Source: Shewanella woodyi ATCC 51908
GTDB lineage: Bacteria; Pseudomonadota; Gammaproteobacteria; Enterobacterales; Shewanellaceae
Length of the DNA: 64,000 nt
Assembly (NCBI RefSeq): GCF_000019525.1
Contig: NC_010506.1
Location: 3,286,001 to 3,350,000, forward strand
Direction: 5' to 3'
The first letter of the stretch is position 1. Each line of letters begins with the position of its first letter. Below are positions 57,891 through 59,690 of this stretch, piece after piece. The notes beneath the pieces were generated by a model. The model was not told the origin of the DNA. It saw only the letters and a list, made by a program, of their open reading frames with translations, and made no database searches. Made by a program: the position numbers and the translations under genes.

Positions 57891-57990
57891 TGGTGAGTCG
57901 TGAAGGATTCGAACCTTCTACCAATGTGGTAGTTAAGAGTAAGCCAACTGCGCTTTTACAAAAAAGCATCGACTGAGCTATTAATGACTA
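57891..57990 (-). pseudogene. Degenerate tRNA-Lys unit 1 (distal, class I)
   Basis: The T-arm (GAAGGTTCGAATCCTTC) and CCA are intact. The anticodon arm is disrupted by inserts and the acceptor is only partly paired. A 16-nt hairpin GCTTTT-TTGT-AAAAGC is inserted in the D-loop. A T-rich run follows its CCA, so transcription may end here. Confidence 0.8.
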
Positions 57991-58020
57991 CCTCCTTTAT
58001 CTTTTATCACTTAAAGGAAG

Positions 58021-58096
58021 TGGTGGGTCGTGAAGGATTCGAACCTTCGACCAATTGGTTAAAAGCCAACTGCTCTACCGACTGAGCTAACGACCC
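58021..58096 (-). tRNA. tRNA-Lys(UUU), unit 2
   Basis: 76 nt with full cloverleaf: acceptor GGGTCGT/ACGACCC, D-stem GCTC/GAGC, anticodon loop CTTTTAA, T-loop TTCGAAT, CCA encoded. Confidence 0.97.
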
Positions 58097-58138
58097 ATCT
58101 GGTATTGCTTCTACTTCTTTAACCACTAATAGATAAAG

Positions 58139-58214
58139 TGGTGGGTCGTGAAGGATTCGAACCTTCGACCAATTGGTTAAAAGCCAACTGCTCTACCGAC
58201 TGAGCTAACGACCC
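58139..58214 (-). tRNA. tRNA-Lys(UUU), unit 3
   Basis: Sequence identical to unit 2. CCA encoded. Confidence 0.97.
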
Positions 58215-58257
58215 ATCGAGTATTACTTTCTACTTGTTTAGCCACTAATAGATAAAG

Positions 58258-58347
58258 TGGTGGTTCGTGAAGGTTCTAACCATTCGACTGATTGGTTATA
58301 AGCCAACTGCCCTATCCTTCATAAAGAATCGACTGAGCTAACGACCC
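58258..58347 (-). pseudogene. Degenerate tRNA-Lys unit 4 (class II, anticodon UAU)
   Basis: 90 nt. Hairpin ATTCTT-TATG-AAGGAT is inserted in the D-loop, the D-loop GG is lost, and the T-loop is changed from TTCGAAT to GTTAGAA. There is one acceptor mismatch. The anticodon loop is CTTATAA, giving UAU instead of UUU. Confidence 0.85.
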
Positions 58348-58389
58348 ATCTAGTATTACTTTCTACTTGTTTAACCACTGGCAGAAAAG

Positions 58390-58465
58390 TGGTGGGTCGT
58401 GAAGGATTCGAACCTTCGACCAATTGGTTAAAAGCCAACTGCTCTACCGACTGAGCTAACGACCC
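58390..58465 (-). tRNA. tRNA-Lys(UUU), unit 5
   Basis: Identical to unit 2. The spacer on its 3' side carries the CCACTGGCAGAAAAGTGG variant hairpin. Confidence 0.97.
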
Positions 58466-58508
58466 ATCGAGTGTTACTTCCTACTTGTTTAACCACTAAT
58501 AGATAAAG

Positions 58509-58598
58509 TGGTGGTTCGTTAAGGTTCTAACCATTCGACTGATTGGTTAAAAGCCAACTGCCCTATCCTTCATAAAGAATCGACTGAGCTAACGACCC
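58509..58598 (-). pseudogene. Degenerate tRNA-Lys unit 6 (class II)
   Basis: 90 nt, same D-loop hairpin and altered T-loop as unit 4, anticodon UUU. It has one extra base change in the acceptor region (plus-strand TTCGTTAAGG). Confidence 0.85.
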
Positions 58599-58641
58599 AT
58601 CTAGTATTGCTTTCTACTTCTTTAACCACTAATAGATAAAG

Positions 58642-58717
58642 TGGTGGGTCGTGAAGGATTCGAACCTTCGACCAATTGGTTAAAAGCCAACTGCTCTACC
58701 GACTGAGCTAACGACCC
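58642..58717 (-). tRNA. tRNA-Lys(UUU), unit 7
   Basis: Identical to unit 2. Confidence 0.97.
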
Positions 58718-58760
58718 ATCGAGTATTACTTTCTACTTGTTTAACCACTAATAGATAAAG

Positions 58761-58850
58761 TGGTGGTTCGTGAAGGTTCTAACCATTCGACTGATTGGTT
58801 AAAAGCCAACTGCCCTATCCTTCATAAAGAATCGACTGAGCTAACGACCC
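58761..58850 (-). pseudogene. Degenerate tRNA-Lys unit 8 (class II)
   Basis: 90 nt with D-loop hairpin insert and T-loop GTTAGAA, anticodon UUU. Same sequence as unit 10. Confidence 0.85.
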
Positions 58851-58891
58851 ATCAGGTATTGCTTCTACTTCTTTAACCACTGGCAGAAAAG

Positions 58892-58967
58892 TGGTGGGTC
58901 GTGAAGGATTCGAACCTTCGACCAATTGGTTAAAAGCCAACTGCTCTACCGACTGAGCTAACGACCC
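58892..58967 (-). tRNA. tRNA-Lys(UUU), unit 9
   Basis: Identical to unit 2. It is preceded on the plus strand by the GGCAGAAA-type spacer, as are units 5 and 13. Confidence 0.97.
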
Positions 58968-59010
58968 ATCGAGTATTACTTTCTACTTGTTTAGCCACTA
59001 ATAGATAAAG

Positions 59011-59100
59011 TGGTGGTTCGTGAAGGTTCTAACCATTCGACTGATTGGTTAAAAGCCAACTGCCCTATCCTTCATAAAGAATCGACTGAGCTAACGACCC
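59011..59100 (-). pseudogene. Degenerate tRNA-Lys unit 10 (class II)
   Basis: 90 nt, same as unit 8. D-stem and anticodon stem still pair, while D-loop and T-loop tertiary contacts are lost together. Confidence 0.85.
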
Positions 59101-59143
59101 ATCGAGTATAACTTTCTACTTGTTTAACCACTAATAGATAAAG

Positions 59144-59219
59144 TGGTGGGTCGTGAAGGATTCGAACCTTCGACCAATTGGTTAAAAGCCAACTGCTCTA
59201 CCGACTGAGCTAACGACCC
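59144..59219 (-). tRNA. tRNA-Lys(UUU), unit 11
   Basis: Identical to unit 2. Confidence 0.97.
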
Positions 59220-59262
59220 ATCGAGTATTACTTTCTACTTGTTTAGCCACTAATAGATAAAG

Positions 59263-59338
59263 TGGTGGGTCGTGAAGGATTCGAACCTTCGACCAATTGG
59301 TTAAAAGCCAACTGCTCTACCGACTGAGCTAACGACCC
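59263..59338 (-). tRNA. tRNA-Lys(UUU), unit 12
   Basis: Identical to unit 2. By the higher-order period a degenerate unit would be expected here, suggesting gene conversion or an older state. Confidence 0.97.
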
Positions 59339-59380
59339 ATCTAGTATTGCTTTCTACTTGTTTAACCACTGGCAGAAAAG

Positions 59381-59456
59381 TGGTGGGTCGTGAAGGATTC
59401 GAACCTTCGACCAATTGGTTAAAAGCCAACTGCTCTACCGACTGAGCTAACGACCC
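59381..59456 (-). tRNA. tRNA-Lys(UUU), unit 13
   Basis: Identical to unit 2, with the GGCAGAAA-type spacer on its 3' side. Confidence 0.97.
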
Positions 59457-59499
59457 ATCGAGTATTACTTTCTACTTGTTTAGCCACTAATAGATAAAG

Positions 59500-59575
59500 T
59501 GGTGGGTCGTGAAGGATTCGAACCTTCGACCAATTGGTTAAAAGCCAACTGCTCTACCGACTGAGCTAACGACCC
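59500..59575 (-). tRNA. tRNA-Lys(UUU), unit 14 (promoter-proximal)
   Basis: Identical to unit 2. It is the first unit transcribed, about 85 nt after the predicted -10. Confidence 0.97.
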
Positions 59576-59662
59576 ATCTTTGCTTCTAAAAGCAATGCTC
59601 TAGCATGTTTCCTAAGAAGCTTAGCTAGCGCCTCAAGCGACTGTGCCGCTCTGAGGGCGCCT

Positions 59663-59690
59663 ATAATACCTTTTTCATCTTCTCATGCAA
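59663..59690 (-). promoter_or_regulatory. Promoter of the tRNA-Lys array
   Basis: On the minus strand, TTGCAT (59690-59685), a 16-nt spacer and TATTAT (59668-59663) are followed by AGGCGCCC. The GC-rich discriminator is the mark of stringently controlled rRNA/tRNA promoters. Confidence 0.7.

Follow-up and report, generated by a model that had tools for sequence, protein, structure and literature searches.

Why should a tandem run of tRNA genes, which rank with the most conserved of all known genes, carry between its working copies units that look like damaged tRNAs? The question is raised by the tRNA-Lys(UUU) array of Shewanella woodyi ATCC 51908, found on the minus strand at positions 57891-59575 of the DNA analysed here (the window: a stretch of 64,000 nucleotides of contig NC_010506.1). 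The array is made up of 14 tandem units, namely nine 76-nt tRNA-Lys(UUU) genes (N), four altered units of 90 nt (D) and one altered unit of 102 nt (X), which follow one another along transcription, from 59575 downward, in the order N N N N D N D N D N D N N X. Having compared this array with those of related genomes, we tentatively favour the reading that the altered units are tRNA-Lys-derived structured RNA modules that are selected for their folding and most likely act in cis within the tRNA precursor.

The make-up of the array as first described, nine tRNA-Lys(UUU) genes and five altered units in tandem, was borne out by ARAGORN, by Rfam and by reading the units one by one. The nine N genes are identical, and each is detected by ARAGORN and scores 78.1 bits in Rfam. 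None of the four D units, each of which differs from D1 by at most one substitution, is detected by ARAGORN; their Rfam tRNA scores of 30.1-38.9 bits lie above the cut-off of 29. Unit X gave no ARAGORN detection and no Rfam match up to E = 1. Both 16-nt D-loop hairpins were as described, with one G.U pair in the ATTCTT-TATG-AAGGAT form, and the D units do lack the D-loop GG and the T-loop TTC and have a single acceptor mismatch (G3 opposite A70). Searched as a 22-nt pattern with up to three mismatches across the whole genome (5,935,403 bases, one contig), the D insert gave four matches, all in the D units, and its reversed control none. Unit X retains its T arm (including TTCGAAT) and CCA but not the D-loop GG, and its 5' acceptor strand has been swapped out; a 4-nt insert in its anticodon loop and a second new hairpin, CTACCA-CAT-TGGTAG, had both been overlooked. 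The spacer that follows most units can pair with the CCA (CCACT..AGTGG, for example at 59457-59499), and variants of this hairpin are found across the genus.

The D units had been seen as five-armed tRNA-like structures in which the anticodon stem is kept, which is true of the letters of that stem but not of the predicted fold. For D, a five-armed cloverleaf is predicted at -15.2 kcal/mol, against -25.0 kcal/mol for the best fold. In the predicted ensemble the acceptor and the D stem each reach a pairing probability (P) of 0.76, the anticodon and T stems 0.0 and the insert hairpin as drawn 0.03, with a new hairpin, TTAACCA...TGGTTAG, taking the place of the anticodon and T arms at P 0.995. Since an inserted T and a C-to-A change in the former T arm are part of the 3' strand of this hairpin, the changes that destroy the T arm help to form the new structure. 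The same model gives the normal tRNA an acceptor P of 0.98, an anticodon stem P of 0.83, a T stem P of 0.98 and a D stem P of only 0.09, a reminder that it ignores tertiary effects and modifications. D therefore departs from a functional tRNA-Lys both in its elbow, where GG and TTC are lost, and in its predicted fold. The fold of X as a whole unit is more stable than any of 200 shuffles (z -3.04).

We extended this analysis to 115 array stretches, including the window, of which 113 had a normal unit and 89 were complete (promoter block present and at least 500 bases beyond the last normal unit). Altered units were recognised by their anticodon-arm letters, CAGTTGGCTT, with at most one mismatch, a signature that misses units which have lost these letters. 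They were found in 70 of the 89 complete arrays, with totals of 341 altered and 563 normal units. After the exclusion of 22 units without a D-arm anchor, 348 of 370 extracted units could be parsed into classes. Type A (108 units; the D units of the window) retains the 5' half and has a D-loop insert and a TTAACC..GGTT hairpin; type C (106 units) retains the 5' half, with a hairpin, followed by the spacer-like AAAACCAAGAT, in place of the 3' half; and type B (56 units; X by its letters) retains the 3' half and CCA, with the 5' acceptor swapped and the anticodon loop enlarged. The remainder (class O, 78 units), to which the script assigned D4 and X, was not analysed as a class, although those of its units that start with TAAC were counted as type A in the hairpin survey below. 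Types A and C thus keep mainly the 5' half of the tRNA and type B the 3' half, and the rest of each unit is predicted to be refolded into hairpins.

A strict D-loop-insert pattern, which misses some units, matched 36 of 129 genomes of the genus, including the window's own. With each GTDB species represented by a single genome, an exact-pattern scan matched 65 stretches, 47 from Shewanella, two from Parashewanella and 16 from elsewhere; we read the contexts of both Parashewanella matches and of all 16 others (the 47 from Shewanella were not read one by one), and none of the 16 had tRNA-Lys around it. Parashewanella hymeniacidonis has type A units, and P. curva a related altered unit in which the T arm survives. 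Altered units were therefore found only in Shewanella and Parashewanella, and in a sample of 295 genomes from across the order the eight matches all fell within the genus; both scans detect only tRNA-Lys-derived units with exact flanking letters. In two species (arrays L141 and L200, genomes G025 and G127) the tRNA-Lys(UUU) genes are interspersed with tRNA-Lys(CUU) genes that look intact, and the signature detected no altered unit.

Across the genus, the predicted folds of these units are far from those of tRNAs. The anticodon-like stem has a median P of 0.002 in 101 type A units and of 0.000 in 94 type C units, and the 3' hairpin one of 0.924 and 0.991, respectively. The latter exceeds P 0.5 in 92% of type A, where the hairpin may be a surviving T arm, and in 99% of type C. 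Because types A and C lose the anticodon fold and the T arm, and type B loses the acceptor pairing and the normal anticodon loop, the modelled structures make use in translation very unlikely, and the units are probably no longer tRNAs. An origin from tRNA, evident in the shared half, position and spacers, together with a broken predicted fold that suggests incompetence in translation, is what would be expected of plain pseudogenes, and this is the main rival explanation, possible though on balance doubtful. A damaged ancestral tRNA copy would have spread as dimers by unequal crossing over with no function at the RNA level; gene conversion would homogenise the 5' half, and DNA template switching or quasi-palindrome correction would both create and repair the hairpins. 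The way in which altered and normal units alternate in many arrays (patterns such as aNaNaNaN or NbNbNb; 287 N-to-N, 221 N-to-altered, 215 altered-to-N and 72 altered-to-altered neighbours) fits such dimers. Decay, however, should leave units in many states, yet in type C the anticodon-like stem exceeds P 0.5 in none of 94 units, whereas 99% have the 3' hairpin.

The evidence that carries our favoured reading, selection for folding, comes from type C, in which the pairing of the 3' hairpin is preserved through compensatory and G-U changes. This hairpin takes several forms, including GTTAACC/GGTTAAT, GTAAGC/GCTTAT, GTAAGAA/TTCTTGC and ATCAAAAC/GTTTTGAT. Among 57 distinct type C-style hairpins (118 copies from 24 arrays, being those of 184 class C and class O units that fitted the parser, registered by flanking letters only), 86.8% of cells were paired, compared with a mean of 67% and a maximum of 74% for shuffles, and the covariation score was 0.637, compared with a shuffle maximum of 0.389. 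A second alignment comprised 41 of 45 selected type C units, three of L162 having been dropped for a bulged stem and one of L182 for a short stem, exclusions that bias it toward uniformity. Here, three helices were paired in 93.7% of cells, a figure that fell to 31.7-45.8% when the partners were slid, and 69 doubly changed paired cells were counted where 25.2 +/- 4.0 were expected, a number that none of 500 shuffles reached. All of these double changes lie in the 3' hairpin (helix 3), where six of seven pairs are changed on both sides; the D-loop and anticodon-like helices hardly vary. RNAalifold recovered the same 3' hairpin from the type C units and gave the 5' half a different pairing. Helix 3 of type C therefore covaries beyond both shuffled and slid controls, and chance can be ruled out for this hairpin of the relatives as it can for the array itself.

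Changes within genomes were also informative. In plain pseudogenes there should be no constraint on what is left of the unit; in type C, the sole type tested, stems turned out to be less variable than loops, with changes at 33 of 300 stem sites compared with 30 of 126 loop sites (Fisher p 0.0015). Of these 33, 20 keep the pair and 13 break it, more keeping than uniform mutation would give (0.197; p 3e-7). Distinct hairpins that are one change apart differ 16 times in the loop and 11 times in the stem (seven pairs kept), 27 in all; of 39 comparisons two changes apart, none shows a kept same-pair compensation, and the two that strike the same pair lose the pairing (the same sequences enter several of these counts, which are therefore not independent). 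The absence of kept compensations among the 39 suggests that evolution is mostly step-wise, and argues against frequent one-step template switching, a hairpin source invoked by the pseudogene explanation. In addition, G-U pairs are frequent in type C helices, as would be expected of RNA rather than of DNA palindromes.

Several observations weigh against selection for folding, or dilute the evidence for it. Two of the five measures on the type C alignment did not beat the shuffles: the number of pairs in which a double change occurs at all (6 compared with 4.7; 77 of 500 shuffles) and that of further pair types (18 compared with 16.4; 110 of 500 shuffles). The fraction of stem changes that keep the pair, 20 of 33, agrees with what transitions alone would give (about 0.586), so that only the contrast between stem and loop and the covariation between genomes count. 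One same-pair double change within a genome does keep pairing, as template switching would make, and template switching can, according to a published study (PMC8794818), both generate RNA hairpins and maintain them. In 19 of the 89 complete arrays our signature detected no altered unit, and 13 of these 19 have only 16-59 nt spacers, indicating that the units are dispensable. In 8% of type A units no 3' hairpin reaches P over 0.5, and in 6% the anticodon-like stem exceeds that value. Taken over its full length, D4 is not significantly more stable than its shuffles (z -1.2 for 90 nt with CCA, -1.5 for 87 nt without). Each of the double change, the template-switching precedent and the arrays without altered units is at home in the pseudogene explanation, as is the presence of altered units in other tRNA arrays of the S. 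woodyi genome.

For type A, to which most of the window's altered units belong by their letters, the case is less direct. In 69 of the 100 distinct type A 3' parts, the inherited AACC..GGTT forms a hairpin 5 bp long or longer, compared with a shuffle fraction of 0.116; the exact T stem survives in 15, the exact acceptor 3' strand in 26 and CACCA in 49. Since this hairpin begins with four inherited pairs (4 bp in the normal tRNA), the shuffle control is too easy, a further caution for our reading. A modest gain in stability is likewise all that the D-loop inserts show (mean z -0.59 against mononucleotide and -0.45 against dinucleotide shuffles, 51 clusters). These inserts (163 distinct, in the same 51 clusters) are strongly divergent, and the shared geometry that had been pointed out for the two inserts of the window does not extend to the genus, where both length and stem vary. 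The nearest inserts to that of D (in G062, ATTCTTTATGAAAGAT, and in G101, ATTCTTTATCAAAGAT) each lack one pair of the stem as drawn, although six pairs can still be drawn by hand if one T is allowed to bulge. Some inserts, in L067 (G116) and L047 (G057), have a longer or a second palindrome nested within the first, as if they had grown by such nesting. Because the evidence for selection is from type C, extending it to the type A and type B units of the window rests on their shared position and shared refolding, which suggest, from the sequences compared, that these units may be selected as well.

The preliminary description had proposed that the altered units are maintained rather than decaying at random, and that random, pairing-breaking substitutions in relatives, along with a lack of stable transcripts, would mark them as plain pseudogenes. 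For the wider family, maintenance is supported by the 70 arrays with altered units, by the type C covariation and by the lower rate of change in stems, and the type C 3' hairpin came through the check on substitutions; the D-loop stem inserts of the window's class are too divergent to be aligned for it. The four near-identical D units, from which maintenance had first been argued, are not sufficient evidence in themselves, because normal-plus-altered dimers seem to amplify together.

How might such modules act? In our favoured reading, the altered units would be transcribed together with tRNA-Lys from the promoter of the array, would be neither charged nor used in translation, and would be kept because their folded RNA matters in cis within the polycistronic tRNA-Lys precursor. 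There the hairpin modules could keep half-tRNA sequence folded upon itself, punctuate processing, or both, with gene conversion by normal copies holding the 5' half tRNA-like and with copies multiplying as normal-plus-altered dimers. A third role, insulating the folding of the flanking tRNAs, found no support, and its failure also counts against action in cis: when 21 arrays were tested with one spacer each, the native probability of the acceptor and T stems was close to zero with real and with shuffled units, and the tiny differences favoured the shuffled spacers. The native probability is close to zero because the tandem identical tRNA-Lys copies pair their acceptors and near-palindromic T arms with one another; as this arm swapping occurs with or without altered units, equilibrium folding of the precursor is uninformative. 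In the window, the reverse complement of the T arm, GAAGGTTCGAATCCTTC, is almost the same sequence, and between 58021 and 59575 the predicted equilibrium folds exchange T arms and acceptors between neighbouring copies. The role in cis may instead be to punctuate processing or to protect from decay.

Alternatively, the units might be cut from the precursor to act in trans as sponges, decoys or regulators, an explanation that we consider improbable. Such RNAs would be produced in step with tRNA-Lys, provided that transcription of the array starts from the shared promoter block, and their hairpins would confer stability. A precedent may be the Bacillus cereus pseudo-tRNA, which is reported to be perhaps part of a larger regulatory RNA (PMC3399842). 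The spacer RNAs of Escherichia coli tRNA precursors would be another parallel. However, loops and unpaired parts vary between types and clades, no common seed beyond tRNA-derived letters was apparent by eye (no motif search was made), and a decoy for anticodon nucleases would not suit all types. In this last form, for which we had PrrC- or PARIS-type nucleases in mind, the idea was rejected as a general explanation, since types B and C lack the CTTTTAA anticodon loop.

It is far less probable still, in our view, that the units are footprints of integrative elements or of a small palindrome that moves and inserts preferentially at tRNA genes. In several arrays a type B unit, with its intact 3' half, follows the last normal tRNA in the manner of an attachment-site remnant, and motifs like ACTCTT..AAGAG recur in the altered units of several arrays. 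Inserts differ between clades, however, and none of the five flanking genes examined (those for TolB, Pal, CpoB, DcaP-like porin and RadD) encodes an integrase. The ACTCTT..AAGAG motif was rejected as a mobile palindrome: it was counted 91 times genome-wide, about twofold the 46 of its reversed control (palindromic places can score on both strands), mostly outside the tRNA arrays read.

We also compared the altered units with known systems. They share with canonical tRNA-Lys(UUU) arrays their locus, spacers, promoter-like block and the letters of one tRNA half, and differ from them in having lost the predicted anticodon fold and the T arm (types A and C) or the acceptor pairing and anticodon loop (type B). 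YrlA and the tRNA-like modules of Y RNAs combine a tRNA-like RNA with extra hairpins; two YrlA matches (RF02553) were below threshold (35.8 bits compared with 69), each spanned two normal tRNAs, and no Ro-linked gene was sought. Rfam gave no family other than tRNA above cut-off in the stretches searched. In Escherichia coli, the 3' external spacer of the leuZ tRNA precursor reportedly acts as a sponge; such RNAs likewise lie between or beside tRNAs in one precursor, but are plain spacers, unlike the tRNA-derived units of Shewanella. That a pseudo-tRNA can have a role outside translation is already known from B. cereus, where the tRNA-derived element (tRNA-Other; PMC3399842) is a single one beside a genomic island; the Shewanella units, in contrast, are numerous, lie within an array, are restructured, occur in many species and, in one class, have covarying hairpins. 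Mycobacterium and phage tRNA array units (PMC5966550) are also densely packed, and the part of the abstract consulted makes no mention of interspersed refolded half-tRNAs. Among the titles and opening lines of abstracts in the open-licence literature, we found no published description of such units. The base pairing kept in type C points to a structured RNA family that is so far undescribed.

If this reading is true, damaged copies lying between working tRNAs, amplified along with them and refolded with preserved pairing, would present a stepwise route from a tRNA to a new structured RNA. Annotation of tRNAs in Shewanella, maps of small RNAs and studies of tRNA fragments may then overlook a class of co-transcribed RNA. 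Related species with and without the units would offer a tractable system. A bolder version, in which the Shewanellaceae make refolded half-tRNAs, or 'tRNA-derived hairpin RNAs', alongside tRNA-Lys, selected and with a function of their own, and with parallels at tRNA-fMet, -Glu and -Gly, would make tRNA arrays a birthplace of new structured RNAs; we think this unlikely.

By eye, altered units with new hairpins are also interspersed among the normal genes of other S. woodyi arrays: L080 (G000:C1:3039500-3043300), L074 (2148000-2152600), L077, L082, L072, L073 and L071. The tRNAs concerned are Met/fMet (by letters), Glu, Gly, Pro, Asp and Thr/Phe, and the Met array has five altered units. Rfam placed none of these altered units above cut-off, one in L071 scoring 23.3 bits. 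In L082 and L083, tRNA-Leu(UAA) is followed on its 3' side by repeated tRNA-Leu 3' halves, each with a terminator-like hairpin after it.

Table 1. Units, hairpins and promoter-like block of the S. woodyi tRNA-Lys array, in window coordinates.
Feature	Position	Strand	Remarks
Promoter-like block GGTATTATAGGCGCCCTC	59653..59670	-	Head of array; in 127 of 129 genus genomes with at most one mismatch, mostly once
tRNA-Lys(UUU) N1	59500..59575	-	ARAGORN, Rfam
tRNA-Lys(UUU) N2	59381..59456	-	ARAGORN, Rfam
tRNA-Lys(UUU) N3	59263..59338	-	ARAGORN, Rfam
tRNA-Lys(UUU) N4	59144..59219	-	ARAGORN, Rfam
Altered unit D1, type A, 90 nt	59011..59100	-	Rfam tRNA, 38.8 bits
D1 D-loop insert hairpin ATTCTT-TATG-AAGGAT	59067..59082	-	P 0.03 for exact pairing; overlapping D-loop stem preferred
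D1 new hairpin TTAACCA...TGGTTAG, in place of anticodon and T arms	59029..59052	-	P 0.995
tRNA-Lys(UUU) N5	58892..58967	-	ARAGORN, Rfam
Altered unit D2, type A, 90 nt, identical to D1	58761..58850	-	Rfam tRNA
tRNA-Lys(UUU) N6	58642..58717	-	ARAGORN, Rfam
Altered unit D3, type A, 90 nt, one 3'-region substitution relative to D1	58509..58598	-	Rfam, 30.1 bits
tRNA-Lys(UUU) N7	58390..58465	-	ARAGORN, Rfam
Altered unit D4, 90 nt, anticodon loop CTTATAA	58258..58347	-	Rfam, 38.9 bits; type A by letters, O by classifier
tRNA-Lys(UUU) N8	58139..58214	-	ARAGORN, Rfam
tRNA-Lys(UUU) N9	58021..58096	-	ARAGORN, Rfam
Altered unit X, 102 nt	57891..57992	-	Type B by letters, O by classifier
X D-loop hairpin GCTTTT-TTGT-AAAAGC	57952..57967	-	
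X second new hairpin CTACCA-CAT-TGGTAG, replacing 3' side of anticodon	57918..57932	-	

A scan for the sigma-70 consensus did not report the block at the head of the array, which we take to combine a -10-like TATTAT with a GC-rich discriminator and to resemble a growth-rate-controlled tRNA promoter. The array is preceded by tolB, pal and cpoB and followed by the DcaP-like porin gene and radD; the cpoB product scores below the cut-off of NCBIfam PRK10803 and above that of TIGR02795.

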